A DNA stretch of 64,000 nucleotides from Cryobacterium zongtaii (GTDB lineage: Bacteria > Actinomycetota > Actinomycetes > Actinomycetales > Microbacteriaceae). Where the stretch lies: the NCBI RefSeq assembly GCF_002909375.1, contig NZ_PPXD01000026.1:186001-250000 (forward strand), read 5' to 3'. The position numbers and the translations under genes are program-made. This document shows, in pieces, positions 31,123-47,318 of the stretch (position 1 is the stretch's first letter; every line of letters starts with the position of its first letter). The notes below the pieces were generated by a model. The model saw only the letters and a program-made list of their open reading frames with translations, ran no database searches and was not told where the DNA came from.

Positions 31123-32091
31123 CTATCCGAACCGGCCGTTGACGTAGTCCGCCGTGCGGCTGTCGATCGGGTCGCCGAACATCAGGTCGGTCGGCCCGTG
31201 CTCGACGATCCCGCCGGGGGTGCCCTGGGCGGCGAGGAAGAACGCGCAGTTCTGGGAGACCCGCTGGGCCTGCTGCATGTTGTGGGTGACGATGACGATC
31301 GTGACCTCGTGGGCCAGCTCGAGCATGGTCTCCTCGATCACCCGGGTCGACGTGGGGTCCAGGGCCGAGCACGGTTCGTCCATCAGCAGGATCCGAGGCG
31401 TCACCGCGAGGGACCTGGCAATACACAGGCGCTGCTGCTGCCCGCCGGACAGCCCGCCGCCGGGGGCACGCAACCGGTCCCGAACCTCGGTCCACAGCCC
31501 GGCCTTGGTCAAGCAGCTCTCGACCAGATAGTCCTTCTCGTCGTTCGAGGCACGGACGCCGGTGAGGGTGAGCCCGGCAATGACGTTGTCGTAGATCGAC
31601 ATGGCCGGGAACGGGTTGGGCTTCTGGAAAACCATGCCGATGTGCTTGCGGGCGTCGACGAGTTTGCGTTCCGGATCGTAAATGTCCTCTCCGTCGAGCA
31701 GTACCTCGCCGGCCAGGCTGGCTGCCGGCACGAGCTCGTGCATCCGGTTCAGGATGCGCAGGAATGTCGACTTTCCGCAGCCGGATGGGCCGATCAGGGA
31801 GGTGATGACGCCCGCCGGCATGGTCAGGTTCACCCTGTCGAGCACCTGCCGCTCGCCGAACCAGGCCGACACGTTGCGCCCCTCCAGGGTGGCCAGCGGT
31901 CGCGGCTCCACCGCGATGGGCAGCCCGACGGTCGGGGTTCGTGTGCCCATGCGGGCCGGAAAGGCGAAACCGCGGGACCGCCGCGCCCGACGGTCTGGCT
32001 GAGCCCGGTCGGCCGGGTGAGCGGGGCGAGGGGCCGTCGTCACGGCCGGCAGCACCTGCGTCAGCTCGGCATCCTGGGTGGACTGGGTCAT
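31123..32091 (-). CDS. pstB: Phosphate-type ABC transporter ATP-binding protein PstB, N-terminally extended
   Basis: A 322-residue ATPase. Core motifs: Walker A IGPSGCGKSTFLRILNRMHE, Q loop GMVFQKPNPFPAMSIYDNV, signature LSGGQQQRLCIARSLAV, Walker B ILLMDEPCSALDPTST and switch His in VIVTHNMQQAQRVSQNCAFF. These are the diagnostic PstB forms. It is about 65 residues longer than usual, with a Pro/Arg-rich N-terminus; an internal ATG at 31950 is another possible start. It is the last gene of the surface-protein-rich locus, about 9.7 kb from pstA. No phoU follows. Confidence 0.93.
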   Translation of the reverse strand: MTQSTQDAELTQVLPAVTTAPRPAHPADRAQPDRRARRSRGFAFPARMGTRTPTVGLPIAVEPRPLATLEGRNVSAWFGERQVLDRVNLTMPAGVITSLIGPSGCGKSTFLRILNRMHELVPAASLAGEVLLDGEDIYDPERKLVDARKHIGMVFQKPNPFPAMSIYDNVIAGLTLTGVRASNDEKDYLVESCLTKAGLWTEVRDRLRAPGGGLSGGQQQRLCIARSLAVTPRILLMDEPCSALDPTSTRVIEETMLELAHEVTIVIVTHNMQQAQRVSQNCAFFLAAQGTPGGIVEHGPTDLMFGDPIDSRTADYVNGRFG

Positions 32092-32109: not shown

Positions 32110-33129
32110 CTAGAGCAGGTTGGGGAGGAGCCGAACAGCCTGGTCGGCGACGAAAAGCCCACCGACTGCCACGACCGGGATAAAAACCGTCCAGGCCTTC
32201 TGCAGGCCGACGCGGCGGAAGGACCAGATCATCGCCAGTTCAATCAGGAGGAAGAATTGGAGAGCGAAGGCCAGCGCCCACACCGTCGTGGTGTCGGTTG
32301 CCAGTTCCTTGTGCGATGCCGGCAGGGTGACATAGCTGGTCTGGCGGATGCCCGCCGGCTGTGTCTCGCTCGTCAGAACGGCATCCACCCTGGCCACGCC
32401 GCCCGGCACGAAGGCCGCCCCTCGCGCGGTCTCGAGGATCAGACGGCTCTCCCCCGCGGCCAGCGGGGTCGGTGCCGGATCTCCGGCGTAGCGCACCCCG
32501 ATCACTTCGAAAGTCTGCTCGCCCTGGCCGGTGAGCACGGTGAACACCTGGCCGGGCGCCAGTTCCTGGATTCGCGCGAACGGCCCGCCGTACGCGGCGG
32601 CCCGGCCCATGACCACGCTGATGCCGGCCTGGCCGGGCAGCACAGTGTCGCGGCGGTGCCCGGGACCCAGGCGGGTGGTCCCGGAATCGGAGCCCTCGAC
32701 AATAACCTCGTGCACACCGAGCGAGGGGATGTCGATGATCGCGAGCGGGGCGCCGTCCGCCAGGAGCACCTTGTCAACGGTTCCCTCACTCACCGGCGCC
32801 GTTCCCTGGGCCAGTTCCACCCGCAGCGTGTCGGTGAGCTGCTGCTGGGAGACGAGGTGCTGCAGGTTTCCCAACACCGTGAGGTTGGCGAGGAAGCCGA
32901 AGATCAACGCGGCGACGATCGCCAGGATGGTGCGCAGCAGCAGGTCGGCCGGGGTGAGGACAAGCACGGTCGGCGGTGCCGGCATGCGGCGCGGCGGTTT
33001 CGGCGGCTGGCGCGGGCGCCATCCCCTGGGCGGCTGTGATCCGACGGGCGTTGGAGCGTCAGGCTGTTCGTATGACGGCTCAGGAGCCCGGCCTGGCTTC
33101 CAGCCGCGCGGCGGCCTGGTCAGGGTCAC
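32110..33129 (-). CDS. Sortase-fold membrane protein without catalytic His and Cys
   Basis: A 339-residue protein. Pro/Arg-rich cytoplasmic N-terminus with two PPRGW motifs, membrane helix at about 62-84, then a sortase-like beta barrel (about 125-255), then two C-terminal helices (about 283-303 and 312-331). Sortase landmarks align closely: IIDIPSLGVHEVIVEG, LGPGHRRDTVLPGQAGISVV and YGGPFARIQELAPGQVF. The catalytic His position (xGHR in sortases) is Arg176 in MGRAAAYGG. The catalytic Cys position (LTLxTC) is Ala235 in LILETARG. The Arg of the third motif may survive as Arg247. It overlaps the upstream gene by 4 bp (GTGA). A transpeptidase reaction is unlikely. Confidence 0.8.
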   Translation of the reverse strand: MTLTRPPRGWKPGRAPEPSYEQPDAPTPVGSQPPRGWRPRQPPKPPRRMPAPPTVLVLTPADLLLRTILAIVAALIFGFLANLTVLGNLQHLVSQQQLTDTLRVELAQGTAPVSEGTVDKVLLADGAPLAIIDIPSLGVHEVIVEGSDSGTTRLGPGHRRDTVLPGQAGISVVMGRAAAYGGPFARIQELAPGQVFTVLTGQGEQTFEVIGVRYAGDPAPTPLAAGESRLILETARGAAFVPGGVARVDAVLTSETQPAGIRQTSYVTLPASHKELATDTTTVWALAFALQFFLLIELAMIWSFRRVGLQKAWTVFIPVVAVGGLFVADQAVRLLPNLL

Positions 33130-33866
33130 GATGCGGTTTCCGCGACGCTGACGGGAAAGAGCCTCTTGGTGAGGAGCGCATAGCGAGCGGCAACGGACAG
33201 GCCGACGACCAGAGCGGCTACCAGCAGTACGAAGTACGGCGGAACCAGAAGCAGTGCGTCCCGGGTGACCGGAGTCAGCGCGGTGCCGTCGACACTGTCC
33301 GGCGGGGTCAGGGTCACGTGGCTGTTGAAGACGCTCCACTGGCTCACATCGGTGAAGGTCGTGGTGACGGTGCGGGTTTCACCACCGGGCAGGTCGGTGA
33401 GCGAGGCGTCATCCGCGGCACGGATTTCTAGGCCGACGGCGTTGTCCACCCAGAACCGGAGGGACGAGCTGATCGGATTGTCGGTGAGGTTTTTCACCGT
33501 GAACGTGAGCACGATGTCCCCGCCGTCGGGACCCGCGGTCGGGTGTGCGGTCGCGGTGAGCCCGCTCACGGCGAGGACGCCGGCCAGCACGACGGGATCC
33601 GCTCCGAGGGCTGCCGTGGCCGCAGCGCCCACCGTGGTCACCTGGGTTGTTGCCGGGATGACCGGTGTGGTGGAAGCGCTGCTCGCCCGGTTGGTCGCTG
33701 CCGGGCTGGGCGATGCCGTGGAGCCGAGGACGCTGACAGTGAGGCCCACTCCGTCCGGATCTTCGTTCGCCGAGGCGCTCCCGGAGAGCCCCATCAAGCC
33801 GAGCGCGGGAACCAGTGCGCAGAACACGACGATCAGGAGGCGCCGCGTGGGGCGGGAGGTGAGCAC
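33126..33866 (-). CDS. Membrane-anchored surface protein with CARDB/NEW3-like beta-sandwich
   Basis: A 246-residue protein. The signal peptide (about 8-34, LLIVVFCALVPALGLMGLSG) is followed by a Ser/Thr/Ala-rich spacer. A beta-sandwich region contains GGDIVLTFTVKNLTDNPISS and LPGGETRTVTTTFTDVSQWS, like CARDB or NEW3 adhesion-type modules. It ends with a membrane helix (about 212-232) and a short basic tail. The start is uncertain: GTG at 33866 gives a compact signal peptide, while a TTG at 33902 is also possible. Its 3' end overlaps the sortase-fold gene. The function is unknown; the context implies a part of the surface scaffold. Confidence 0.7.
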   Translation of the reverse strand: MLTSRPTRRLLIVVFCALVPALGLMGLSGSASANEDPDGVGLTVSVLGSTASPSPAATNRASSASTTPVIPATTQVTTVGAAATAALGADPVVLAGVLAVSGLTATAHPTAGPDGGDIVLTFTVKNLTDNPISSSLRFWVDNAVGLEIRAADDASLTDLPGGETRTVTTTFTDVSQWSVFNSHVTLTPPDSVDGTALTPVTRDALLLVPPYFVLLVAALVVGLSVAARYALLTKRLFPVSVAETAS

Positions 33867-34031
33867 AGTCAAGTTAGTCTGTTCCGGTTTTCTCTGGGCC
33901 AAAGCACAGGCAAACGACAGGCGAACGCGCCGGAAAGAACTGGCGTTGCCCGCGCGGATGACCGACCTCGGGAGGACTTTATCGGGATGAATGGACGGGG
34001 AGTGGTATCCAGTGGGGCGGAGCGTCCGCGC

Positions 34032-35105
34032 TCAGGCGGTCGCTTCGTCGCGGGCTTGGCGCCGGGCTTCCGCCTCGGTGTAAGCGATCCAGGCCGTGGC
34101 TCGCGCCGAGTCCCTGGACCGGCCGAGCCGCACAACAAGCAGGGTGAAGCCGATGAGGACAAGAAGGATCACGAATGCCCAGGGCACCACGAACATGTCA
34201 CTGCTGCGCTCCGCGGTGGGCAGGACCCCCGCCTCCAGGGCATCCGGGTCGACCGTGGCGGCGAGGGAGACCTGCGGGTTGAGGTACACCCAAGGCCCCA
34301 CCCCGGGTACAACGAGCGTCACGGTGCGGGAGCTGCCGGGAAGCATCTCGGGGATCTTGATCTTCGTCAGGCCGGAGAGGGGGATGCCGAAGATGCCGCG
34401 CACCTGGGCGACGGTATTGGCGCCCAAGGACACGTTGCCGGTGTTCTGCAGGCTGATGGTGAGGGAGGTTTCGCCGGCGAGTGGATTGAGCTCGCCGCGG
34501 TAGGACGAGACGATGCTGCTGATGGTGAGGCCGGGTTGCAGCTCTCCCTTCACCCGCGCGTAAAGCCGGATGGCCACCCGGCGGTCCACCGATACCTGGC
34601 CGGCCGGCGAGAGCGCGGAGACGATGATGCCGCCCGCGTGGTCGCCGGGAACGGCGTCGGCGGGAACGGTGACGGTGAAAGGGATGATTTGGGAGGCACC
34701 GGGCGCCAGGTCAACCTGTACGGTGTCAACCCCGCCGTCGAATGCCACCCAGTTGCCGGCGTCGACGGGTTCCGCGTCGCCTTCCAGCAGCGAATAGCTG
34801 CCGTCTTCTGCGTTGAAGGCATCGGTGGCGTATACGGTGACGGACTGCGCCGTCGTCCCGGAGTTGCGCACCAGGTATTCGTCCGAGATCTGCTGGCCGG
34901 GCTCCACCTGGTAGCTGAACCGGGACCGGGACTGGTCAACACTGCCGTTGGCTGCGGGCGCGGCGGCGATACCGTCCGAATCATCCGCCCAGGCGCCAGC
35001 GGCACCCAGGCCCAGGGTCATGCCCAGGGTGACGAGCACACCTGTAATAGCGAGGGCGGAGCGGCGGGAGGTGGTGCGACGGATGATCACGATCGGCGAT
35101 CTCAT
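34032..35105 (-). CDS. DUF916 / WxL-interacting-type membrane protein
   Basis: A 357-residue protein with signal peptide (about 15-41), two Ig-like beta domains and one C-terminal membrane helix (about 312-332, WAFVILLVLIGFTLLVVRL) followed by a basic tail. The N-terminal domain matches DUF916 (WxL peptidoglycan-binding partner proteins): FSYQVEPGQQISDEYLVRNS, DLAPGASQIIPFTVTVPADA and VPGDHAGGIIVSALS. In Firmicutes such proteins are encoded next to WxL surface proteins and bind them. Here the WxL-like gene is immediately upstream, fitting that pairing. Confidence 0.82.
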   Translation of the reverse strand: MRSPIVIIRRTTSRRSALAITGVLVTLGMTLGLGAAGAWADDSDGIAAAPAANGSVDQSRSRFSYQVEPGQQISDEYLVRNSGTTAQSVTVYATDAFNAEDGSYSLLEGDAEPVDAGNWVAFDGGVDTVQVDLAPGASQIIPFTVTVPADAVPGDHAGGIIVSALSPAGQVSVDRRVAIRLYARVKGELQPGLTISSIVSSYRGELNPLAGETSLTISLQNTGNVSLGANTVAQVRGIFGIPLSGLTKIKIPEMLPGSSRTVTLVVPGVGPWVYLNPQVSLAATVDPDALEAGVLPTAERSSDMFVVPWAFVILLVLIGFTLLVVRLGRSRDSARATAWIAYTEAEARRQARDEATA

Positions 35106-35223: not shown

Positions 35224-36294
35224 CTACTTCGAGACGACCGTGAGGGTCAGCGTCGAGTTGTAGGTGCCGGCAGCCTTCGCCTGCGGGGCGACGAAGGTCA
35301 GGTCGGCGTTCAGTACGCTCAGGCCCGTGGTGTTGGCCGCGGCACCCGAGGCGAACGCCGCCGGGTAGGTGGCGGAACCGGCAACCTGGGGTGCGGCAGC
35401 GGTGACGCCCGTCGCCACGGTTCCGGCCGCCGTGACGGACGGTGCGATGCCCAGCTGGGACTTGCCGATGGTGCTGGTCGGGTCGGCGCTGTTGGTGAAG
35501 TCAACAACGTTCGCCGTCAGGTCCCAGCCTTCCTTGGTGAGGAAACGACCGTCGTTCACCGTGACGGCACCCAGGGTGCCGGTGGTGGTGGAGACGTTGT
35601 TCACCAGCGTCGGAGTGGCGAAGGTCGCCGCGGCGCCCGTCGGAACCTCGAGGCTGAGTACACCGTTTTCCGGGGCGAGGATGGTCGGGGCCAGCGCGAT
35701 GTTCTGAACCGTCTCGGATTCCTCGGCCGGGACCTCGGGCACACCCGCGGCCTCGATGGGACTGAAGACGTAGTCGCCGGTACCGGCGGTCACGGTGACC
35801 GTGCGGTAGAAGGCGCCAACGACGGTCACACCGTTGTTGATCGTGCAGGCCACCCCGAGGCTGTAGGTTCCGCCTGCAGCCTTGATGCCGGACTGGCCGG
35901 GCAGGCCCAGGATCAACTGAATCGGGTTCAGGGTGGCAGCGACGATCTCGACGGTGCCGGGGTTGAATCCGTTGACCCTGAATGCCTGCCAGGCGGCGGC
36001 GGTGCGCTCGTCGCCGGGAGCAGACATGAACGTCCAGCCCTCGGTGGACTCTGCCGGGCAATACGTCGGGTTCGTGTAGCCGAGCTCGTCTGAGGCGCCG
36101 TAGGCGTCTGTCTCCCAGCCGAAGACCGTGGAGCCGTCGGTCACGAACTCACCGTTGGTGTCGTAGATGTACAGCCCGCCATCGGAGCCGTTCTTCTGCG
36201 GTTGGACTGCGGCGGACGCGCTCGTGGCACCGGCCATCAGGGCCAGGGACACCACGCCTACGGCAGCGATGCGTAATTTACTGTTGAGTTTCAC
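35224..36294 (-). CDS. WxL-like secreted surface protein
   Basis: A 356-residue secreted protein. The GTG at 36294 follows AAAGGA by six bases. Signal peptide about 1-28, ending ATSASA. The C-terminal domain (about 240-356) resembles a WxL domain: GRFLTKEGWDLTANVVDFTN, TIGKSQLGIAPSVTAAG and a closing strand AAGTYNSTLTLTVVS. WxL domains bind peptidoglycan non-covalently. The N-terminal part contains GGLYIYDTNGEFVTDGSTVF and Cys residues, but no recognised domain. It lies next to the DUF916 gene, its expected partner. The WxL assignment is by pattern and is less secure than that of DUF916. Confidence 0.65.
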   Translation of the reverse strand: MKLNSKLRIAAVGVVSLALMAGATSASAAVQPQKNGSDGGLYIYDTNGEFVTDGSTVFGWETDAYGASDELGYTNPTYCPAESTEGWTFMSAPGDERTAAAWQAFRVNGFNPGTVEIVAATLNPIQLILGLPGQSGIKAAGGTYSLGVACTINNGVTVVGAFYRTVTVTAGTGDYVFSPIEAAGVPEVPAEESETVQNIALAPTILAPENGVLSLEVPTGAAATFATPTLVNNVSTTTGTLGAVTVNDGRFLTKEGWDLTANVVDFTNSADPTSTIGKSQLGIAPSVTAAGTVATGVTAAAPQVAGSATYPAAFASGAAANTTGLSVLNADLTFVAPQAKAAGTYNSTLTLTVVSK

Positions 36295-36328
36295 TTCATA
36301 TCCTTTTCGAGTTGAAGGTACGGGTGGG

Positions 36329-37432
36329 CTAGGCGGTCTTGGCGACGCGGTACGCGACGACGCCGGTCGTGGGCGCAAGGAAGCCGAACTTCTTCTTGAC
36401 CGCGCCGGCCTTCGTGATCAGCGTCTGCGAGTTCGTCAGGCTGTTACCCTGCGCGGCGTCAAGGAGCTTGGCGAGGTTGACGTCGTACTTGGCGGAGGCC
36501 GAGTTGACGCGGGCGTATTCGACCACGAGGTAGGTGTCGCGGCCCCAGGTGGTGTCCGAGTAATAGGTGGCGTTGGGAACCATCGCGGTTCCGGTGCCGG
36601 TGACCGGGGAGGTGCCGGCGACCATCGAGCCGAGGGTGCCGGTACCACGCTTGTCGTAGCTGGCACCGGTGTTCATTGCGATCCAGCGGGACACGGCCAT
36701 GGGCATGACCGAGTTGGTCGTGAGGGTCGTGGCGTCGTGCTCCTGGCCCTCAACGACGCAGCCGCCTTCAGCGACCGTGCGCATTGCGGTCTCAGAGGAG
36801 CCGATCTTTCCGAGCCAGTCCTTGCGGGTGCCCGAACCGTTCTGGGGAATAATCGGGGTGACCGTGACCCCATTCACGGTGGTGACCGAGCACTCGTAGA
36901 GGCTCTTCATCTCCGAGCCGGAGAGTGAGGAGATGTCCGTCGCCGTGCCGTTGTAGGCGTAGGCGATGGCGTCACGGCCGAACGGAACGTACATGAGTTC
37001 GCCGTTGGCGTTGGCGGTGCCTGCGCTGGACGAACGCGCGATGTCGACCTGGCCTGTGATGACGACGTTGACCGGGCTGCCTGCGGTACCGGAAGTGTAC
37101 GCTGCGCCGTCGATGGAACGGCTGAGCGCCTTGACGCCGTCGCCCGAGCCGTTGGGACGGCCAAAGCGCACGCCGCTGGACTTGGTGGTGATGTAGGGGG
37201 ATCCGGTCGCGTCGAACGACCCGATGGAAGCACCGTTGACCGTGGAACGGATGGCGGAGCTCGTGATGCTCGTGCCGTTGGCGAGGGCGCTGACGACATC
37301 TTCGAGGGTGTCAGAGCCCACGATGGAGTAGCTGTTCGAGACGGGATCGGCGTGAGCCGGAGCAGCGAGGGCAATGCCAGAGAGGGTGACGCCGACAGTC
37401 GCGCAGAACGCAATAGCCTTCTTCGAAATCAC
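36329..37432 (-). CDS. PstS-like substrate-binding protein (compact form)
   Basis: A 367-residue secreted type 2 periplasmic-binding protein. GTG start at 37432 with AAAGG seven bases upstream. Signal peptide about 1-28 ending in APAHA. PstS-type landmarks: SNSYSIVGSDTLEDVVSALA, TGQVDIARSSSAGTA, ELMYVPFGRDAIAYAYNGTA, LSGSEMKSLYECS and PIIPQNGSGTRKDWLGKIG. The SGTR loop corresponds to the oxyanion-binding region of PstS. It has no lipobox and no C-terminal helix, so it may be released or held by partners. It is one of three PstS-like proteins in this locus. Confidence 0.8.
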   Translation of the reverse strand: MISKKAIAFCATVGVTLSGIALAAPAHADPVSNSYSIVGSDTLEDVVSALANGTSITSSAIRSTVNGASIGSFDATGSPYITTKSSGVRFGRPNGSGDGVKALSRSIDGAAYTSGTAGSPVNVVITGQVDIARSSSAGTANANGELMYVPFGRDAIAYAYNGTATDISSLSGSEMKSLYECSVTTVNGVTVTPIIPQNGSGTRKDWLGKIGSSETAMRTVAEGGCVVEGQEHDATTLTTNSVMPMAVSRWIAMNTGASYDKRGTGTLGSMVAGTSPVTGTGTAMVPNATYYSDTTWGRDTYLVVEYARVNSASAKYDVNLAKLLDAAQGNSLTNSQTLITKAGAVKKKFGFLAPTTGVVAYRVAKTA

Positions 37433-37542
37433 TGTGATGCCTTTCGGGTGTGGTGCAAGGAACGGAATCCGGACGGACCCGCTTGTCCCGACGTGCTCTC
37501 CCGTGGTCAATGCCTTGGGCGGAACCGTCAAGCTATGGCGCA

Positions 37543-40146
37543 TCAGAGCTGTTTTCTTCTGATGCGCGAGATCATCGGGACCGCCCCGGCGGCCGCGAGG
37601 CCCGAGAGCAGCCCGGCCGGTACGGCGAGGGCCACCGGTCCAACCATGGGGTCGTCAGGTGTCGCCGCTCCGAGGAGTGGACCGGCCGCAGCGCCGGTCG
37701 CCGTGGGTGCGGTGGCTGCAGCGACAGTTACTGCTGCCGTGGCGACGGCGCCGGATCCGCTTGCCGTCACCGCCGCGCGGGTGGGGGTCACCGGAACTGT
37801 CGCCGCAACGGGTGCGGAGGTGGCAGGCGGTTTCGCAGTGGGGCTGATGCCCTGCTCGATGGCCGTGGCCGCGACCAGCGCCTGGTCGATCCAGCTCTGC
37901 GGCATGGGGGCGTACCCGGCCGGCAGCTGGCCGAGTTCGGTGCCGGGCTCCTGGCCCGTCGTGGCCGCGTAGCGGATCAGGTTTGCGAACTTGGCGCGCT
38001 GCGTGGCGTCGGTCTGCAGGGGATTGAGCGCGGCATAGACCGGCATCGTCAGCGGATACGCCGTGAGGGCGGCCCGGGTCGCGCTGGAGGCCGGGTCGAA
38101 TTCCAGCACCTTGGGCTGTTGCGCCGTTGGCGTCATTGCCGCGGCTGCGGCGAGCATCGAGTCGGAATCGGGCGACACGTATGCGCCGGCCGGATTGAGC
38201 AGGGAGGCCGTGACGTTCTGGTAGCGCGACGCGGCCGCGGCCGTGCTGAGTCCGATGACGCCCTGCTCGCCGACCAGGGCTCGGGTACTCTTGAGGTACT
38301 TCGGCGGGGTGCTCGTGGAGTCCCAGCCGCCGAGCTGCAGCCCGTCGCCGCGCAGGGTGAGATAGGCGCCGTTCTCGAAGTCGGAGGTGTACGGCCGCCA
38401 GGTGACCAGGTTCACCGGCCCCACGTAGTTCGAACCCTCCGTCGCTTCCGTCTCGACGGGGTCGGCCTTGGGGAAGTTGTCACGGGGCAGTGCGAACGCC
38501 GCTCCAGTGGGGTTGATCGCGGCATTGGTGGAGTACCAGGGGTTCACGATCATGCCCCACTCGTCGGGGGTGCCGTCCAGGAAGGCCACGGCGTCGGCAT
38601 CCGCCATCACATAGCGCCACAGCTGGGTGGCGAGGTCGGAGCGGCCCGACGGGCTCAGGGCATCAGACAGCGAGACGCTGTTGAGGTCCTGGGCGGCCCA
38701 TTCAGGGTCGTTGATCTCGAGGAAGTCGGGATCGGTGGTGATGTTGCGCGCGTTGTCTCCGGGGTGTTCGAAATCGACGTAGTTGATGTGGGTGAGGTCG
38801 GCTCCCGGAGGCAGTGCCGATACGTAGGACGCGGTGAGCAGCTTCGCGATCAGGCGCGGGGTGAGATTGACAGATGTGAATGCCTGCGTTTCCCGGTCGA
38901 TGTAGTCCTGGTCGATGCCGCCGATGGGCTTCACCCGCCGGTCGATCGCGAAGGAGACGGTGACGCCGGACATCCCGACCGGGGCGTATTGCAGGGGGTC
39001 CGCTGTGGTGGTGCTGGCGGGAAACGAGGTGAAAGCGAGCGGACTGGGGACTGTACCGGCGGCTTTGGCCAGGACGTCGGATTCGTTGCCGGTGCTCAGC
39101 ACGAACGCCGACCCTGTCGTGCCCGCGCAGAGATTCGGCTGCCAGGAGGAGATAGCTCCGGCGATGAGTTCACTGCCGCCGAGCTGGGATTCGGCGCTGC
39201 CGATCTCGCAGCGCACGCCGACGGGCTTGAAATGAAGCTTCACGGCGACATGGTGTTGCCAGGCATCCCAGAACAGGCCGGGCCGGATGATCTGGCTCAC
39301 GCCGGAGTCACCCGTTCCCCGGGGGATGACGACCAGCCAGCAGGACCTGCCGGTGGTGTCCTGGCCGGCAACTACGACGGGCTGGCCACAGCCGAGACCG
39401 GGAGACTGCATGGTTGTCTGTACCTCGAACTTGATCGAGCCGGCGCCGGTGTCGTCGGAACCGGCCCACTTCACCTCGTTAGAGGTGTACTGGGTGAAGA
39501 ACTCATTGCTGTTGACGTCGACGCCCGTGTCGTGCACGAGGACGCCCTCCGCATTGGGCACCACGGAGGCAACGGTGCCGCCGTTGAGGGAGGTGAACGG
39601 TATGGAGGTGTATGGCGGGTTCGCGAATCCGGAGCCCGCGGACGTGTACTGCTCGTCCTCTGGAGCGATGTTCGGCGCCAGGCCGGTGTCGGGTTCGTTG
39701 GGATCGACCTCGACGTTCGCCTCGACGTTGGAGTCGCGGCCGGCATTCGGGAAAGCACCGTACTGGCAGGTCGTGCGGTCAGGGTGCCCTGGATGATCCG
39801 GATCATCGCCCCAGCACTGCGCGATCTGCAGGAAGTTCTCGCCGCCGACGTTGCCCTGTGGCCGCACAGACTTCTTGCCGCCGGTCCAGCTCACCAGGAT
39901 GCCCTCGGACACGAGGTCGGTGGTTTTGGAGACCGTCACCGAGAGATCGGGAAACGGTGCCCCGGCCGGGTCGAGCTCGTAGTCAGCGGCGGTCACGGTG
40001 ACGGCACTTGAGTTGTCGGCCACGGCGGGGATAGGGGCCAGTGAGGTGAGCGCGGCAACGCCGACGCCGACCAGAAGGCCCACGACGATGCCGCCGGCAC
40101 CCGCCCGGGTCCAGAGCGAGGTTTTCACCGTTGCATGGCGGCTCAT
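37543..40146 (-). CDS. Giant PstS-related surface protein, C-terminal membrane anchor
   Basis: An 867-residue protein. Signal peptide about 14-43. The N-terminal about 270 residues (VTVSKTTDLVSEGILVSWTG, QIAQCWGDDPDHPGHP and Cys-containing loops) do not match a family I know. The C-terminal half has PstS-like features: LQYAPVGMSGVTVSFAIDRR, SVNLTPRLIAKLLTASYVSA and KFANLIRYAATTGQEPGTEL followed by LPAGYAPMP. An Ala/Thr/Pro linker leads to a final membrane helix and the basic tail RIRRKQL, with no LPxTG motif. The ATG overlaps the TGA of the upstream PstS-like gene by 4 bp. It is probably a wall-spanning binding protein. Confidence 0.72.
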   Translation of the reverse strand: MSRHATVKTSLWTRAGAGGIVVGLLVGVGVAALTSLAPIPAVADNSSAVTVTAADYELDPAGAPFPDLSVTVSKTTDLVSEGILVSWTGGKKSVRPQGNVGGENFLQIAQCWGDDPDHPGHPDRTTCQYGAFPNAGRDSNVEANVEVDPNEPDTGLAPNIAPEDEQYTSAGSGFANPPYTSIPFTSLNGGTVASVVPNAEGVLVHDTGVDVNSNEFFTQYTSNEVKWAGSDDTGAGSIKFEVQTTMQSPGLGCGQPVVVAGQDTTGRSCWLVVIPRGTGDSGVSQIIRPGLFWDAWQHHVAVKLHFKPVGVRCEIGSAESQLGGSELIAGAISSWQPNLCAGTTGSAFVLSTGNESDVLAKAAGTVPSPLAFTSFPASTTTADPLQYAPVGMSGVTVSFAIDRRVKPIGGIDQDYIDRETQAFTSVNLTPRLIAKLLTASYVSALPPGADLTHINYVDFEHPGDNARNITTDPDFLEINDPEWAAQDLNSVSLSDALSPSGRSDLATQLWRYVMADADAVAFLDGTPDEWGMIVNPWYSTNAAINPTGAAFALPRDNFPKADPVETEATEGSNYVGPVNLVTWRPYTSDFENGAYLTLRGDGLQLGGWDSTSTPPKYLKSTRALVGEQGVIGLSTAAAASRYQNVTASLLNPAGAYVSPDSDSMLAAAAAMTPTAQQPKVLEFDPASSATRAALTAYPLTMPVYAALNPLQTDATQRAKFANLIRYAATTGQEPGTELGQLPAGYAPMPQSWIDQALVAATAIEQGISPTAKPPATSAPVAATVPVTPTRAAVTASGSGAVATAAVTVAAATAPTATGAAAGPLLGAATPDDPMVGPVALAVPAGLLSGLAAAGAVPMISRIRRKQL

Positions 40147-41783
40147 TTGAGGCCGTCCCTGCCACCGCGCGGAGCCAGGCGTCGCCAGAAGACCGGCGGC
40201 AGCACTGCCGCCGCCACCAGGAAGGTCGCGGCCAGGAGCATCAAGGATTGCTGTATCCCCCAGCCTTCGTCGGCCAGCGCGAAGGGCGTCGCCACGGCAG
40301 CACCGGCCAGGGTCGACCCGGCTGCCCCGCCGGAGATCAGGGCCCCGTTTGCGTCGTACACTGCCGCGGTACCCGTCGAGGCGGCAGCGCCGCCGGTCGC
40401 CGCGGCCGCCGCGGCGGCGGTCTCCGTGGTTCCACCGGTGGCGCTACCCCCGGTTCCCGAGCCGGAGACCGGGGTCTCCGCCGGGGCGCCGGCGGTCCCG
40501 GTGGTGCACTGATTGGGACCCACCTTGTCGCAGTCCTGCGGTTGAGCAGCCGTGAGGGCGAGCTGGTTGCTCGACGGTGAATCCCCGGGTTTAAATGTGG
40601 GGTTGTTGCACTTATTGATGTCCACACCCGTCGTGTCCGCCCCCGGGATGCGCTTGATCTGGTCGAATCCGGCCAGCACCAGGTTCATGGGAAGCGGCGA
40701 GTAGCCCAAATCGGCGGCCTGCTGCTGGCCCTCGCAGAGCATGTAATTCGCGAATGCGCCGAGGGTGAAACCCTTGCCGGCCGTGAAGACCCCGCCGACC
40801 TCAGTGGGAACGATCATGTACGAGTAGCTCGACAGCGGGTAGGTTCTTGCGTCGGCGCTGTTGTACACCCCGTCCAGGATCTGGGTGAGGTAGTTCGGAC
40901 CGGGGGTCTGGTCGATTTGGGCTGTCGTCAGGGCAACGGCCACCGAAGAGGCCGTGGGCTCGACGTAGTAGCCGGCCTGGTTGAGCACCTTGGCCACGGG
41001 AAAGCCGGACTCGAGGGCGTACGAGTACTCGACGTAGGTGATGGCGCCTTCGCCGTAGTCCTGGCTAACGTAGCCGGCCACCCCTGAGGACAGGCTCTGG
41101 GCCTTGGCATTGCCGAAGGTGGGGTACTGGGAGGTCAGCCCGCAGGGTGTTGGACGGTTGACCGAGGTACAGAATGCGTTCCAAAGGTCGGGGTGCTGCT
41201 TGGACATCCAGAGGGTGAACTGGGCGGTGGAGCCGGAGCCGTCGGAGCGGACAACCGGCACGATGCCCTTGTCTGGCATGGCCAGGCCGGGGTTGTCAGC
41301 CTGGATGGCCGGGTCGTTCCAGTTGGTGATGACGCCGGTGAAGATCTTGGTGACGACCTCGCCGCTCAGCCGCAGGTTGGATACTCGCACCCCGTTGATC
41401 TTGAGGTTGTACATGAAGGAGGTGCCTCCAGCCACGATGGGCATGTACGCGTATCCCCTGGTAGGTACTTCTGGTGCCGTACCGTTTTCCGGGGCGAGCT
41501 GGAAGGGGACCTCGCTCACGGCGAAGTGGACGACGCCGGCGATGAAGTCACTGCGACCGGTCGAAGAACCGCCGCCGTTGTAGTTCACGGTCATCCCGTA
41601 GTTCGACGCCACGTTGGTGCGCCACTGGTCGAGGGCGTTCTGCGACCAGGTCGAGCCGCTGCCCGAGATCGGGTCGTAGCTGACAGCCTGCGCCGGCAGG
41701 GCGCCGGTCAGGCTAACGATCACGACGGCGCTGAGTGCGAACAGGGCGTGGATTGCACGAATCCACCGGGTTTTCGGCGTCAC
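40143..41783 (-). CDS. PstS-like phosphate-binding protein with C-terminal membrane anchor
   Basis: A 546-residue protein. Signal peptide about 10-33, then a PstS domain: SGSGSTWSQNALDQWRTNVA, NYNGGGSSTGRSDFIAGVVH, VVRSDGSGSTAQFTLWMSKQ and YSPLPMNLVLAGFDQIKRIP. The Ser-rich oxyanion loops of PstS are well kept, so phosphate or a similar oxyanion is a reasonable ligand. A long Gly/Ala/Thr linker (about 430-500) leads to a membrane helix near 512-532 and a basic tail. Normal PstS proteins are lipoproteins without such an anchor. The GTG start at 41783 overlaps the pstA stop by 4 bp. Confidence 0.85.
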   Translation of the reverse strand: MTPKTRWIRAIHALFALSAVVIVSLTGALPAQAVSYDPISGSGSTWSQNALDQWRTNVASNYGMTVNYNGGGSSTGRSDFIAGVVHFAVSEVPFQLAPENGTAPEVPTRGYAYMPIVAGGTSFMYNLKINGVRVSNLRLSGEVVTKIFTGVITNWNDPAIQADNPGLAMPDKGIVPVVRSDGSGSTAQFTLWMSKQHPDLWNAFCTSVNRPTPCGLTSQYPTFGNAKAQSLSSGVAGYVSQDYGEGAITYVEYSYALESGFPVAKVLNQAGYYVEPTASSVAVALTTAQIDQTPGPNYLTQILDGVYNSADARTYPLSSYSYMIVPTEVGGVFTAGKGFTLGAFANYMLCEGQQQAADLGYSPLPMNLVLAGFDQIKRIPGADTTGVDINKCNNPTFKPGDSPSSNQLALTAAQPQDCDKVGPNQCTTGTAGAPAETPVSGSGTGGSATGGTTETAAAAAAATGGAAASTGTAAVYDANGALISGGAAGSTLAGAAVATPFALADEGWGIQQSLMLLAATFLVAAAVLPPVFWRRLAPRGGRDGLK

Positions 41784-43030
41784 GAGGACGACTCCTTCTT
41801 CTTTGGGGCAGGCGGGAGCGGGGCAGGCTGGTGCGGATGGCGGAGGTCGCCCCGGATCGTGATGCGCTGCAGGTCACGCAACGAGGCCGCCACCACCCGC
41901 TGCTGCTGGCGGCGCGACAGGTCGCCCGGGCCGCGCCCACCGATCAGCCTGGCGATGGCGAACAGGGCGAGCACCAGCAGGATCAGCACCGCCGCCGCCC
42001 CGAAGCCGCGGGCGATCATGTTGGGCTCAGGTGACTTGACGAAGTCGAACACCTGAAGCGACAGCGAGATCATCGGGCCCTCGAACGGATTGAGGTTGAC
42101 GACCGCAGTCACGCCGCTGGTGAGCAGGACCGGGCTGGTCTCACCGATCCCCCGTGCGGTGCCCAGGATCACGGCCGTGGCCAGCCCTGGCCGGGCAGTG
42201 GGCAGCACTACGTGCCAGATGGTGCGCCACCGGGTTGAGCCCAGGGCATATGCGGCCTCGCGCAGGTTGCCGGCCACCAGGCGCAGCACGATGTCGGAGG
42301 CCCGGATGACGATGGGCAGCATCATCACCGTGATCGCCATCGCTGCGGCGAAACCCGACCGCTGGTGGGTGATCAGTACGATGATCGCCGAGTAGACGAA
42401 GAGGCCGGCCACGATCGAGGGCAGCGCGGTCATGGCATCCGAAATCGTGCGCACGAACCGGGCGAACCGGCCGCCGACCTCGTTGAGGAAGAGCGCGGTG
42501 AGGATGCCCAGCGGAACCGTGATGATCAGCGCCATGCCGATCTGCATCAGGGTGCCGACGATGGCGTGCAGGATGCCACCGACGTCGAGTCCGTCGAGGG
42601 GCCCAGCCATCTCCATGCTCTCGGTGAAGAAGTTGAGGTGGGGCAGCGCCTCCTGCCCGCGCACCAGGGTGAAGGCCACGACGAAGACCAGGGCGCCGAA
42701 GAGCACTACACCGGCGCTGGAGAGCAACACGGCCATCACCCGGTCCTTCACCTCCTGGAAGTCAGCCGTGAAGCTCACCAGCAGCGCGTAGAAGCCGATG
42801 AAGGAGAGGAAGGCGACAATCGTCCATCCGATGCCGCCGGACAGCGGCGTGACCCAACCAAAGATCAGGGTGGCCAGGGCCATGGCCGCGGCGGCGGCGC
42901 CCAACACGTTGAAGCGGTCGCCCACCCGCGCCGAGCGCACCCGGCGGCGTGGACCGATCGCGATTCCGTCGGGTGACGGGATGTGGGTGCTGCGCGCAGC
43001 CGGCGTGAGGGTGGTCTCTGTCAGTGTCAT
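41780..43030 (-). CDS. pstA: Phosphate-type ABC transporter permease PstA
   Basis: A 416-residue permease, longer than usual PstA at both ends. About seven hydrophobic segments. The binding-protein-dependent permease EAA loop is EAAYALGSTRWRTIWHVVLP followed by TARPGLATAVILGTARGIGE. Another landmark is GGILHAIVGTLMQIGMALII. The C-terminal cytoplasmic tail (about 75 residues, RRQQQRVVAASLRDLQRITI) is unusual. The ATG at 43030 is two bases after the pstC stop. It pairs with PstC to form the membrane channel. Confidence 0.92.
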   Translation of the reverse strand: MTLTETTLTPAARSTHIPSPDGIAIGPRRRVRSARVGDRFNVLGAAAAAMALATLIFGWVTPLSGGIGWTIVAFLSFIGFYALLVSFTADFQEVKDRVMAVLLSSAGVVLFGALVFVVAFTLVRGQEALPHLNFFTESMEMAGPLDGLDVGGILHAIVGTLMQIGMALIITVPLGILTALFLNEVGGRFARFVRTISDAMTALPSIVAGLFVYSAIIVLITHQRSGFAAAMAITVMMLPIVIRASDIVLRLVAGNLREAAYALGSTRWRTIWHVVLPTARPGLATAVILGTARGIGETSPVLLTSGVTAVVNLNPFEGPMISLSLQVFDFVKSPEPNMIARGFGAAAVLILLVLALFAIARLIGGRGPGDLSRRQQQRVVAASLRDLQRITIRGDLRHPHQPAPLPPAPKKKESSS

Positions 43031-43032
43031 GG

Positions 43033-44073
43033 TCAGTCGCTCTCTGCCCCTGAGCGGGACCTGGCCACAATGGAGGAGGCCGTGAAGTTGATGACCAGGG
43101 TCAGCAGGAACAGCACCAGACCGGCCGCCATCAGCGCGGAGAGGCCGAAGGCGCTCGATTCGCCGTAGCGCAGGGCGATAAGCGCCGACACCGAATTGCT
43201 ACCGGTCTTGAGCAGCTGCCAGTTGATGGTGAAGATCGGCGAGATGATCATGTAGACGGCGATGGTCTCGCCCAGGGCCCGGCCGAGGCCGAGCATGGTG
43301 CCGCCGATAATTCCGCCGCGTCCAAAGGGAAGGACGACGGCCTGGATCATGCCCCAGCGGGTCGACCCGAGGGCGAACGCCGCCTCGCGTTCCCCGATCG
43401 GGGCCTGGGAGAAGGCCTCGCGCATGACCGAAGTCTGGGTGGGCACCACCATCAGCCCGACAACGATGCCGGCGATGAACGCCGAGGAGGTGAAAGCGCT
43501 GGCGTCGGTGAGGGCATCGCCGGACGCATCCGAGACCCTGAAGAACGGGATCCAGCCGAAGTAGGTCGAGATCCAGCTGGCCACCGGGATGACGTTGGCT
43601 TGCAGGAAGAACACTCCCCAGAGCCCGAAGACCACGCTCGGCACGGCGGCCATCAGGTCGACGAGGGTGACCAGGGTGGACCGCAAGCGGCCCTGGGCGA
43701 CCTCGGAGATGAGCAGCGCGGTGCCCAGCGCGAGCGGCACCGCGACACACATGGCGATGAGGGCGATCGTGATGGTGCCGAAGAGCACAGAGGCGATGCC
43801 GAAGGACTGGGACTCCGGTGACCATTCCTGTTCGGTGAGGAACGAGAAGCCCGCGACGCCGAGGGCGTCAGAGGCCCGGATCGAGAGGAAGACCCCCACG
43901 GCGAGCATGATCGCGACGGTGATACCACCGGCGGCGAACGCCACCGAACGGAACACGGAGTCCGACACCGACGGCCGGGACACCAGCGTGCGCCGACGTT
44001 CCTTCTCGAAGGGGAACGCTTCGGTGTCCGGCGCGGGGCGCGTAGACAGAGAAGCATTGATCGTGCGTGGCAT
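43033..44073 (-). CDS. pstC: Phosphate-type ABC transporter permease PstC
   Basis: A 346-residue permease with about six to seven membrane helices. EAA loop: EREAAFALGSTRWGMIQAVV followed by LPFGRGGIIGGTMLGLGRAL. Further PstC landmarks: FLTEQEWSPESQSFGIASVL, LMAAVPSVVFGLWGVFFLQ and GIVVGLMVVPTQTSVMREAF. The ATG at 44073 has GAGGA about six bases upstream; a longer extension to 44151 is not supported. It is the first gene of the locus. The 163-bp gap upstream contains the palindrome AAACATATGTTT at 44146-44157, but no convincing PHO box. Confidence 0.93.
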   Translation of the reverse strand: MPRTINASLSTRPAPDTEAFPFEKERRRTLVSRPSVSDSVFRSVAFAAGGITVAIMLAVGVFLSIRASDALGVAGFSFLTEQEWSPESQSFGIASVLFGTITIALIAMCVAVPLALGTALLISEVAQGRLRSTLVTLVDLMAAVPSVVFGLWGVFFLQANVIPVASWISTYFGWIPFFRVSDASGDALTDASAFTSSAFIAGIVVGLMVVPTQTSVMREAFSQAPIGEREAAFALGSTRWGMIQAVVLPFGRGGIIGGTMLGLGRALGETIAVYMIISPIFTINWQLLKTGSNSVSALIALRYGESSAFGLSALMAAGLVLFLLTLVINFTASSIVARSRSGAESD

Positions 44074-44145
44074 GGGTGTCCTCGGGAGCGACAGGGGGGG
44101 GAACGGGGCAGGGCCGTGCGGGCCGGGTAAGCGGCCGCACGTCCG

Positions 44146-44157
44146 AAACATATGTTT
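44146..44157. promoter_or_regulatory. 12-bp palindrome upstream of pstC
   Basis: AAACATATGTTT is a perfect AT-rich palindrome in a GC-rich background, 73 bp before the pstC start, between pstC and the upstream kinase gene. It is a candidate operator for the locus. No regulator is linked to it by sequence. Confidence 0.35.
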
Positions 44158-44236: not shown

Positions 44237-46039
44237 TCAGGGCGACGGAGCCGGCGGTGCGCTGTTCGTGGGCGTGGTGCTCGGGCCCGGCGACGACGAC
44301 GGCGTGGCCGTCGGATGGACCGGGGCCGCGGCGGCCACGGTGATCGTCACGCTCGTTCCGAGGCGCAGCACCGCTGCCGGGTCCGGATGGCTCGCGAGCA
44401 CCGTGCCAGGCACCGTAGCCCCGTCGATGCGGGTCTCGACGACAGCGACGAATCCCGCGTTCTGCAGGGCGGCCACAGCCTCAGCCGAGGCAAGCCCGAC
44501 GGTGGCGGGAACGCTGTTCGAGCCGGACGCCACCACCAGGTCGACGGTGTCCCCCGCGTTCAGCCACGATCCTGGCCCCGGCTCAAGGGCGAGAACGGTG
44601 TCGCCGGTCCGCACCGAATCCGCCGGTGTCAGGCTGCCCAGACGGAGACCTGCGGCCTCGAGGGCAGCGCGGGCCTCGCCGAGCGGCATGATGGTGAGCT
44701 CGGGCACCTGGACCGATGGGGATGGGGCCTCGACCGGTGCTGGGGGTGCCGTCGACATGTCGGTGCTGACCTCCGCAGCGGTCGCCGATGGCGTGCTGCT
44801 CACGGCCACGAACGACCGGGCAGAGCCACCGGCGGCCGCCACCCAGCCGGCCGCGATCACCCCCGCAACGAGCACCAAGGCGACCCAGCCGGCCGCCCGC
44901 CCTCCGCCCGGCCGCTGGCGTCCGGGCCGAGGCACGGAGGGCGATCCGGCCGCCGAACCTGTGGCCGACCCGGCCGTCGCCCCACCCGGCGGACGTTGCG
45001 CGGTGCGCGGCAGCACGGTGGTGGGGCCGGGGTCGGTGACGGCGTGTGGCAGCCCGTCAACCAGGCGGTCGAACCGGCGAGTGCGGTCGTCGCCGATACC
45101 GGTATCGGCCGGCGCGGGCGGCGTCAGGGCCAGAATGGCGTTCCGCATCTCAGCCGCGGAGGTGAACCTGTCCTCCCGGTGCTTGAGCAGCGCCCGCACC
45201 ACGATCCGGTCGACGCCCCGAGGGATGCCGGCCCGTGCCACCGACGGAACCGGTGGCGGTGCGAGCGCGTGGGCGCGCATCACTGCGGCCACGGTGTCGC
45301 GGACATAGGGCGCCTCCCCGGTCAGCGCGAAGTACAACACCCCGCCCAGCTGGTAGAGGTCACCGCGCTCGTCGACGGGAACACCGGCGGCCTGCTCGGG
45401 TGAGAGGTAGTTGACACTGCCCAGCACGCCGACGGGCCGGTCCTCATCGGCATCCGGATCGTGGCCGTCTGCCGGTTCGCTGCCCAGCACGTCCGACCCG
45501 ACCGCCGCCCGGCCGGCCGCATCCGCCAGGCCGAAGTCGAGCAGTCGGACGCCAGCTATATCGAGTCGGCCGTCGCCGCCGGGGGCGATCATGATGTTCG
45601 CCGGTGACACGTCGCGGTGGATCAGCCCGGCGGCGTGGGCGGCGGCCAGCGCCTGCAGCACTGCGAGAGCGACCGTGAGGGCATCCGGGACCGGAAGCGG
45701 GCCGGTGCGGCCGACGTGCTCGGCGAGGCTCTCGCCCGGGGCGAGATCCAGGGCGATCCAGGCGAGCGGCTCGGCGGCATCGTCGTGCACACCCACGTCG
45801 AGGACGGCCACGATGTTCGGGTGCCGGACCCCGGCCGCCGCACGGGCCTCCCGGAAAAACGCCTCCCGGAGCCTCGGGGAGCTGGACAACACCGGATGCA
45901 GGATCTTGAGCGCGATGGTTTCGCCGGAACGGGTGTCGACGGCGGCGAAAACCGACGCGGATCCACCCGTGCCGAGCAGCGCACCCAGCCGGTAGCGCTC
46001 GGAGATCAGGCCGGCGACCGGGCCGGACAGCCGGTTCAC
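44237..46039 (-). CDS. PASTA-domain serine/threonine protein kinase (PknB-like)
   Basis: A 600-residue receptor kinase. Kinase domain about 14-300: G-loop LGTGGSASVF, Lys45 (IALKIL), Glu64, catalytic loop HRDVSPANIM with Asp143, and LDFGLAD with Asp168. The catalytic-loop Lys (HRDxK) is Ser145, an uncommon variant; other key residues are intact. A membrane helix lies at about 384-403. Outside are two PASTA repeats (about 445-505 and 509-570), known to bind peptidoglycan or muropeptides, and a Pro/Ser/Thr tail. The GTG at 46039 overlaps the transglycosylase stop by 4 bp. It probably senses cell-wall state; the Pst locus lies directly downstream. Confidence 0.9.
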   Translation of the reverse strand: MNRLSGPVAGLISERYRLGALLGTGGSASVFAAVDTRSGETIALKILHPVLSSSPRLREAFFREARAAAGVRHPNIVAVLDVGVHDDAAEPLAWIALDLAPGESLAEHVGRTGPLPVPDALTVALAVLQALAAAHAAGLIHRDVSPANIMIAPGGDGRLDIAGVRLLDFGLADAAGRAAVGSDVLGSEPADGHDPDADEDRPVGVLGSVNYLSPEQAAGVPVDERGDLYQLGGVLYFALTGEAPYVRDTVAAVMRAHALAPPPVPSVARAGIPRGVDRIVVRALLKHREDRFTSAAEMRNAILALTPPAPADTGIGDDRTRRFDRLVDGLPHAVTDPGPTTVLPRTAQRPPGGATAGSATGSAAGSPSVPRPGRQRPGGGRAAGWVALVLVAGVIAAGWVAAAGGSARSFVAVSSTPSATAAEVSTDMSTAPPAPVEAPSPSVQVPELTIMPLGEARAALEAAGLRLGSLTPADSVRTGDTVLALEPGPGSWLNAGDTVDLVVASGSNSVPATVGLASAEAVAALQNAGFVAVVETRIDGATVPGTVLASHPDPAAVLRLGTSVTITVAAAAPVHPTATPSSSPGPSTTPTNSAPPAPSP

Positions 46040-46854
46040 GGCATCCGCGCTGCGTAGCCGTTCGCCGCCACGGCGACGGAATCGACGTAGCTCTCGACGT
46101 GGTTGTACGAGTAGACGGCCGCCCGCCAGGCCGTCGCGGCCGAGAGGTCGCCCGTGTCGCAGAGGTACCGGCCGGTCGCCAGCGCGGCGTCGTCGATCTG
46201 TTGGGGGTCGGCGGTTCCGTCGCCATTGCCGTCCGCACCCCACCGGTCCCAGGTGGCCGGGATGAATTGGAGCGGGCCGACGGCACGGTCGAACTCGGTA
46301 TTGCCGTCCCAGCGGCCGGCGTCGGTGTCGACGAAGACGTCGTATTCGGACCCATCCAGCAGCGGCCCGTAGATCCCCGGCGCCGCGACGCCGTCGGCGC
46401 CGATCGCTGAGCCGTCGTGGCTGCCGTGGTCGGATTCGATCGATCCCAGCGCCGCGAGGGTAGTCCAGCCCAGGCGACAGCCGGGCTGTTCGCTAGCCAG
46501 CCGCAGTGCTGCGCCCGCGTACCCGAGCAGAGCTCTGTGCGGGATGCCGGTGGCCGATGCCGCCGCCCTGGCCCAGTCCGCCGACACCAGGCCGGCAGCG
46601 GGGACTCCGACCAGGACGGAAGTGCCGACGGCCACGTTCCCTGACTGGCTGACGGATGCCGTTGGCGCCGGGGCAGGCAGCAACACTGCCGGCGCAGCGG
46701 CACTGCTCGACTCGCCCGCACTGCTCGACCAGGCCGTCCTGTACTCCCCTGGCCCTCCCACCGATTGCAGCAGGGCTCCCCCGACCAGCCAGGCCGTCAG
46801 GACCAGGAACAGGCCGAGGGGTACCCAGTCGGCCCAACGCTCGCGGGCGCTCAC
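46036..46854 (-). CDS. Membrane-anchored lytic transglycosylase-like protein (SLT fold)
   Basis: A 272-residue protein with an N-terminal membrane helix (about 10-31), an Ala/Ser/Pro spacer and a C-terminal transglycosylase domain. Landmarks: RLGWTTLAALGSIESDHGSH with the likely catalytic Glu140, then FDRAVGPLQFIPATWDRWGA, GTADPQQIDDAALATGRYLC and AVYSYNHVESYVDSV. Such enzymes cleave peptidoglycan glycan strands. GTG start at 46854, 4-bp overlap with the preceding gene and with the kinase gene. The coupling with a PASTA kinase suggests regulated wall remodelling. Confidence 0.88.
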   Translation of the reverse strand: MSARERWADWVPLGLFLVLTAWLVGGALLQSVGGPGEYRTAWSSSAGESSSAAAPAVLLPAPAPTASVSQSGNVAVGTSVLVGVPAAGLVSADWARAAASATGIPHRALLGYAGAALRLASEQPGCRLGWTTLAALGSIESDHGSHDGSAIGADGVAAPGIYGPLLDGSEYDVFVDTDAGRWDGNTEFDRAVGPLQFIPATWDRWGADGNGDGTADPQQIDDAALATGRYLCDTGDLSAATAWRAAVYSYNHVESYVDSVAVAANGYAARMP

Positions 46855-47318
46855 CAGACGCCGGCCAGTTCGGCGTCGCCACGGGGCCGGCGGGAACGGC
46901 GGGCTCCGGGCTCGACCATGCGCCGAGGATCGGCCGTCACCACCGCGCTGCGCAAGGCGGCCAGGGCGCCCGCGCAGGCATCCCGGCTGGCCGACGTCGT
47001 TCCGTACCACCGTCCACTCGTCATCACGGCGACGTTGTCGACGGTGACAACCCAGCCGTGGGTTCCGGATACCGGCCCGGTCACGGCGCGCATGGCCATC
47101 CGGTCGACCCCAAGCTGCAACGCGAGCACGTGCGCCCGAGCCGTGGCGAAGGACGAATACACCGAGGAACTGCGCCCCAACTCCCGGCTGTTCGACGCGA
47201 GGAGACGCCAGATCCCGGAGTGTGCCGACCAGGACCCGTCGGTGGCTGACGTGCCGCGCGCGCCGCCGCGGCGTGGAACCGGCACGATGCGGGCAAGCCC
47301 GACCTCGCCCGATTGCAA
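46851..47318 (-). CDS. Small protein of unknown function (first gene of the kinase operon)
   Basis: A 155-residue protein if started at the TTG at 47318, which has AGGGAA just upstream. It contains SSSVYSSFATARAHVLALQL and VDNVAVMTSGRWYGTTSASR, followed by an Arg-rich C-terminus. No membrane helix and no family that I recognise. The composition is ordinary for the region, and the tail overlaps the transglycosylase start by 4 bp (GTGA), which supports it as a real gene. The start codon lies inside a hairpin (see the next entry). Confidence 0.55.
   Translation of the reverse strand: MQSGEVGLARIVPVPRRGGARGTSATDGSWSAHSGIWRLLASNSRELGRSSSVYSSFATARAHVLALQLGVDRMAMRAVTGPVSGTHGWVVTVDNVAVMTSGRWYGTTSASRDACAGALAALRSAVVTADPRRMVEPGARRSRRPRGDAELAGVW

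Follow-up and report, generated by a model that had tools for sequence, protein, structure and literature searches.

A protein with a predicted sortase fold and replaced catalytic residues is a fixed part of a phosphate-importer-like operon in many actinobacteria

Sortases are known as enzymes, and PstS, the binding protein of PstSCAB transporters, is usually anchored as a lipoprotein in Gram-positive bacteria. The closest described relatives of the protein considered here are the class E sortases, namely SrtE1 of S. coelicolor (5cuw) and those of S. avermitilis (5go5, 5go6), with which it has in common its predicted fold and the PGQ.G and YG.PF segments. In the published account of SrtE1 (PMC5148588), the key residues are His251, Cys320, Arg329 and the S3-subsite Tyr229, the last of which falls in a GHY motif going by a printed primer. 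These correspond to Arg176, Ala235, Val245 and Arg159 of our protein, hereafter the pseudosortase, which also differs from the class E sortases in its two C-terminal membrane helices and its location in a pst operon. A second comparable assemblage is that of the WxL/WxLIP (DUF916-DUF3324) clusters, in the abstract of which (PMC10599100) no pseudosortase is mentioned. As in those clusters, a DUF916 protein stands beside WxL-like proteins in our locus; unlike there, these genes sit inside a pst operon, and some related loci have PstS-WxL-like fusions. Compared with ordinary PstSCAB transporters, the operon has pstC, pstA and pstS genes whose products pass the respective TIGRFAM cut-offs and a pstB product below the equivalog cut-off (Table 1), but its PstS ends in a membrane helix and lacks a lipobox, and the pseudosortase and further PstS-fold proteins are added to it. 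The same genome also has an ordinary pst operon, the PstS of which bears a lipobox (LSSC); across the 13 kb read there, no gene was called as a sortase homologue. Among the open-access literature matches listed, no title or abstract start ties an inactive sortase to Pst; hence, as far as those matches go, the sortase fold is known, while a conserved, catalytically dead version of it accompanying an ABC importer appears to be new.

The analysed window is a 64,000-nucleotide stretch of the Cryobacterium zongtaii genome (NZ_PPXD01000026.1, positions 186,001 to 250,000). The pseudosortase gene overlaps by 4 nt at its start with the gene for the 258-aa protein, and pstB starts 18 nt past its stop codon. 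The product is picked up by the Pfam Sortase profile PF04203 (39.8 bits against a cut-off of 26.6) and passes the superfamily cut-off, and its best NCBIfam match is class_E_sortase (NF033747), at 48.3 bits far below the cut-off of 160. Two other PF04203 sortases are encoded in the genome.

Table 1. The variant pst operon and the two genes ahead of it, in operon order (positions of the window)
Feature	Coordinates	Strand	Remarks
Lytic transglycosylase-like protein	46036..47010	minus	PF13406 23.4 bits, just below cut-off 24.3
Ser/Thr protein kinase with PASTA domains	44237..46243	minus	PF00069 99.6 bits, PF03793 69.6 bits
pstC	43033..44151	minus	TIGR02138 240.8 bits, cut-off 196.45
pstA	41780..43030	minus	TIGR00974 211.8 bits, cut-off 193.45
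pstS variant	40143..41783	minus	TIGR00975 210.8 bits, cut-off 205
867-aa PstS-fold membrane protein	37543..40146	minus	N-terminal beta region, predicted PstS fold at residues 317-766 (AF2 model), C-terminal membrane helix, basic tail
PBP-like protein	36329..37543	minus	PF12849 27.6 bits, cut-off 27
WxL-like surface protein	35224..36378	minus	384 aa, signal peptide; homologues match PF13731
DUF916 / WxL-interacting protein	34032..35105	minus	PF06030 36.8 bits, cut-off 27.3
258-aa protein	33126..33902	minus	Hydrophobic C-terminal segment
Pseudosortase	32110..33129	minus	GTG start, 339 aa, frame intact; Pro-rich N-terminus, membrane helix, predicted sortase-fold domain at about residues 110-256, two C-terminal membrane helices, LLPNLL end
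pstB (Pst ATPase)	31123..32091	minus	TIGR00972 325.8 bits, below equivalog cut-off 343.2

The 339-aa protein is predicted to adopt a sortase fold. Its AlphaFold2 model, built from 49 input sequences (mean pLDDT 90, pTM 0.79), shows long helices at residues 60-108, 280-307 and 309-333 with a beta domain in between, and both Foldseek and VIA-align returned sortases as its best solved structural matches. These include 4d70 (Foldseek E 6.8e-10; VIA-align Z 17.5) and 6ixz (Z 17.7, rmsd 2.5 over 157 residues), followed by the class E entries 5cuw, 5go5 and 5go6 (Z 14.6-14.8, rmsd 2.2-2.5, 126-131 residues; for SrtE1 5cuw, Z 14.8, rmsd 2.4 and 131 residues). Profile and model thus bear out the preliminary description of this DNA, which had proposed a sortase fold with both catalytic residues replaced. 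Direct reading of the DNA likewise confirms Arg176 at the position of the catalytic His and Ala235 at that of the catalytic Cys. The gapless alignment of the sortase motifs claimed in the same description stands through the His motif and fails further on, the spacing from Ala235 to the third catalytic position differing by about two residues. That position, Arg in true sortases, aligns with Val245 across the indel; it is aliphatic in most of 127 homologous rows, and Arg247, two residues on, is unconserved (Arg in 63 and Tyr in 54 of the 127).

These replacements are shared by the homologues. One set was gathered by a sequence pattern at residues 160-169, away from the sites counted at positions 176, 235 and 249; it comprises the best 80 of 438 relatives together with the query, and in it Arg176 and Asp249 are each present in 81 of 81 sequences and position 235 is Ala in 77 and Ser in four. 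The other was drawn from the Microbacteriaceae and overlaps with the first, 11 sequences besides the query being identical over the last 250 residues. Here all 51 homologues counted carry Arg at 176, and position 235 is Ala in 46, Gly in three, Ser in one and Thr in one, in counts that leave out a true sortase (L056), two sortases from the genome of the window itself and a damaged copy (L054). The latter, a second pseudosortase copy in genome G118, lies near a contig end and looks damaged around the His motif. Pooling the sets without duplicates and without rows shorter than 180 residues gave 131 rows, with 126 Arg, one Lys and four His at position 176, the His rows being true sortases. Among the approximately 127 rows chosen for having Arg or Lys at this position, R176 is encoded by all six synonymous codons, implying that the residue rather than the DNA is conserved, and the equivalent of the class E S3-subsite Tyr is Arg159 in 117.

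That we are looking at a decaying sortase, or at one with a different catalytic apparatus, is hardly credible. The sortase homology and a nearly invariant His158 might be read in its favour, but His and Cys are replaced across a whole clade in which synonymous codons have been exchanged, no Cys is conserved across the pseudosortase homologues, and His158, being present in 13 of 14 true sortases too, is not a new catalytic residue of the pseudosortases. We therefore rejected an alternative nucleophile, and likewise recent decay, since the replacements are common to the pst-linked homologues, with several synonymous codons, and none of those read has an intact His/Cys pair. As a separate observation, the pseudosortases of three loci (L042, L046, L051) have Cys at the positions matching 166 and 205, possibly forming a disulfide private to this subgroup.

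Of 199 genomes of the Microbacteriaceae, the family of the source genome, 47 have a match to the pseudosortase, the match in one of them (G025) being a true sortase. When 76 pseudosortases and 15 true sortases, a set thinned at 75% identity, were placed in a tree rooted on a sortase of the source genome, all 76 pseudosortase tips formed one clade with support of 98.1/95, whereas support among the true sortases is low. Its deep members come from other families and have Arg (L103, L105, L106) or Lys (L104) at position 176; position 235 is occupied by Ala, Ser or Thr. A wider search gave matches in 133 of 296 genomes; the 18 loci newly fetched and read at the residue level comprise seven pseudosortases and 11 sequences with His. 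One contig titled Stenotrophomonas maltophilia (L174) encodes a pseudosortase together with pstB and is probably a case of assembly contamination.

Many actinobacteria retain the pseudosortase, and in them it is a constant element of this phosphate-importer-like operon. Adjacency was scored by stop-codon distance, a pstB stop 0.7-1.5 kb beyond that of the pseudosortase on the same strand being taken to mark the next gene. By this measure pstB follows the pseudosortase directly in 52 of 52 Microbacteriaceae loci (L004-L055) and in 79 of the best 80 loci out of 438 relatives, the remaining one (L158) ending at a contig edge. Of seven deep loci, L101 and L102 have the same adjacency, L100 is cut by a contig end and has pstC, pstA and pstS upstream of the pseudosortase, and L103-L106 have it among pst genes in other arrangements. 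At every pseudosortase locus long enough to tell, pst genes are present. A Streptomyces-type PHO-box pattern matched the window five times against 6.4 expected, with no match just upstream of pstC. The kinase ahead of pstC probably has its true start near 46045, inside the tabulated open frame. Homologues scoring above 100 bits to the transglycosylase-like protein and to this kinase occur near pst genes, before or after them, in 14 and 15 locus stretches respectively, some of which overlap.

The preliminary description had further suggested that the non-enzymatic domain serves as a docking module for the surface proteins of the locus. The predicted fold, the missing His and Cys and their conserved replacements are in keeping with a non-enzymatic docking module; that its main role would be to hold the WxL-like and DUF916 proteins is, in our judgment, unlikely. 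Genes of this kind do lie just upstream in most of the loci: in the 80 best of 438, short contigs included, a DUF916 homologue was detected in 68, a WxL-like gene in 67 and a homologue of the 258-aa protein, which itself has no Pfam or NCBIfam match at E 0.01, in 72. But in L042, L046 and L051 pstS is the gene immediately ahead of the pseudosortase, which leaves no space for WxL-like or DUF916 genes, and no homologue of either was detected in L150, L186 or L187, in contrast to the pst genes. Incomplete detection and absence from the three minimal loci leave docking of these proteins unsupported as the main role. In two of the minimal loci a PF04203 sortase with a TC motif is encoded near the transglycosylase gene (L046:6617-7675 and L051:1036-2616), the one in L046 being nearest to class F, below the cut-off.

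The distribution of the PstS variant points in a different direction. The window type of PstS occurs in 49 of the 199 Microbacteriaceae genomes (weakest match E 2e-101), and the pseudosortase is found in 46 of these 49 and in none of the other 150. In the three exceptions (G112, G131, G156) the contigs with the PstS variant measure only 3.1-4.3 kb, and the rest of these genomes yielded no pseudosortase either. Where PstS-like genes occur outside the main locus (G037, G007), their products are without the membrane tail, and none of the genes called in the 15-18 kb around them is a pseudosortase. Taken with the pstB linkage, this co-occurrence identifies the constant partner of the pseudosortase as a Pst transporter with a membrane-anchored PstS.

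Accordingly, the reading that we favour, at a probability of roughly 0.55, is that the pseudosortase serves a second, variant Pst transporter as its own non-enzymatic membrane subunit and probably docks the membrane-anchored PstS beside the permease. Its basis lies in the predicted fold, the replacement of His and Cys (and, by alignment, of Arg), the conservation of the replacements, the single clade and the near-absolute linkage to pstB and this type of PstS; the docking step is one that we infer. Under such a scheme, the PstS of the variant transporter would be held by its C-terminal membrane helix instead of a lipid, and the former substrate groove of the pseudosortase together with its conserved membrane helices would hold the PstS tail next to PstCA, so that PstS would be docked non-covalently, being neither cut nor attached to the wall.

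The PstS tail itself may be a remnant or a mimic of a sortase sorting signal. The PstS of the window lacks a lipobox, has no Cys at the end of its signal peptide, and ends in a hydrophobic helix and a basic tail, the helix being preceded by PFALADEGWG; over 95 aligned PstS tails, which include some WxL-like fusions, the commonest residues here are P-F-T-L-[AP]-D-x-G-W-G, a motif that is hard to recognise in L101-L106. We compared 60 PstS tails, hand-picked from 94, with 55 tails of the 867-aa family and 44 of the 258-aa family. The LPXTG_anchor model TIGR01167 matched seven of the 60 (best E 0.0063; the window tail is not among them) and was their commonest NCBIfam match among the best 25 of 31 families listed. 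It matched none of the 44 tails of the 258-aa family and was not among the best 25 of 34 NCBIfam families on the 55 of the 867-aa family; other sorting-type models matched these controls sporadically (CoaP_CTERM two of 55, among the best 25 of 34 families; GVDTG_CTERM one of 44). The exact motif L[PA]xTG is present in five of the 60 PstS tails, one of the 44 and none of the 55, and the looser L[PA]..G in 30 of 60 against seven of 44 and 13 of 55; a still more permissive pattern, [LIV][PA], two or three residues of any kind and then G, is found in 43 of 60, 21 of 44 and 35 of 55. Together, these comparisons suggest, and no more than suggest, that the PstS tail is derived from a sorting signal or imitates one.

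The preliminary description had also stated that no surface protein of the locus shows an LPxTG-type signal. As an exact motif this is true of the window; in the wider family it breaks down, both in the PstS tails with L[PA]xTG and in the WxL-like homologues of three Cryobacterium loci (L112:8206-9168, L113:8253-9119 and L114:8159-9121), whose C-termini consist of LASTG followed by a hydrophobic segment and then a basic tail. The homologues of L113 and L114 pass the TIGR01167 cut-off and that of L112 is just below it; no DUF916 homologue was detected in any of the three loci. We consider it possible, though doubtful, that an inactivated class-E-like sortase and a degenerate PstS sorting-signal tail co-evolved, with the tail being read and PstS thereby held non-covalently at the ABC permease. 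With the class E Tyr being Arg in the pseudosortase, the groove has been remodelled and may have no affinity for a sorting-signal-like peptide. A related notion, which we regard as very improbable, is that the pseudosortase binds the sorting-signal-like PstS tail and keeps a housekeeping sortase from cutting it. The two other sortases of the genome and the few tails with the exact motif would give such a shield an object, but the scissile Thr is rare in PstS tails, and most of them would hence need none.

Residues at the former active site invite one more explanation, in which the rebuilt site (Arg159, Arg160, Arg176, Asp249) would bind either phosphate or a phosphorylated compound and would signal to or gate the transporter. 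Conserved charged residues do stand where the class E sortases have the substrate Tyr and the catalytic His, although the count for Arg160 is biased by its lying inside the search pattern, and the partner is an importer of the phosphate type. Against this, the conserved acids could merely pair with the arginines, and we hold such an anion pocket to be quite unlikely. The ligand of the transporter may itself be unusual: PstS keeps R[SA]DGSG in 89 of 96 sequences (RSDGSG in the window), but the equivalent of E. coli Asp56 is Glu in the window protein and in 73 of 80 matched sequences (16 of the 96 being unmatched), and thus the ligand of the window PstS may be other than plain phosphate, possibly a similar oxyanion.

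Returning to the Pst-subunit reading, the core of transporter and pseudosortase would in Cryobacterium zongtaii have been supplemented by a second membrane-anchored PstS-fold protein and by WxL/DUF916-type proteins. The AF2 model of the 867-aa protein (pLDDT 82) matches 1a40 over its residues 317-766 (Z 29.3, rmsd 2.9, 309 residues). The Pfam WxL profile PF13731 matches eight of 33 homologues of the 384-aa WxL-like protein (best E 6.4e-7), the window copy not being one of them, and seven PstS-like open frames in related loci (L061, L148, L154, L157, L159, L164, L166) have a WxL-like C-terminal domain. In this form the locus plausibly collects phosphate, or an oxyanion like it, across several levels of the wall.

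In broader terms, a single clade that has kept the fold, lost the chemistry and stands beside an ABC importer wherever the locus can be read presents the sortase fold in a second trade. Annotation by name similarity could list these pseudosortases as active sortases. How a Gram-positive binding protein that has no lipid anchor stays at its permease can be tested directly in this system. If the pseudosortase does read and hold a degenerate sorting-signal tail on PstS, the variant Pst transporter would have a mode of anchoring its binding protein distinct from both lipidation and covalent attachment to the wall.
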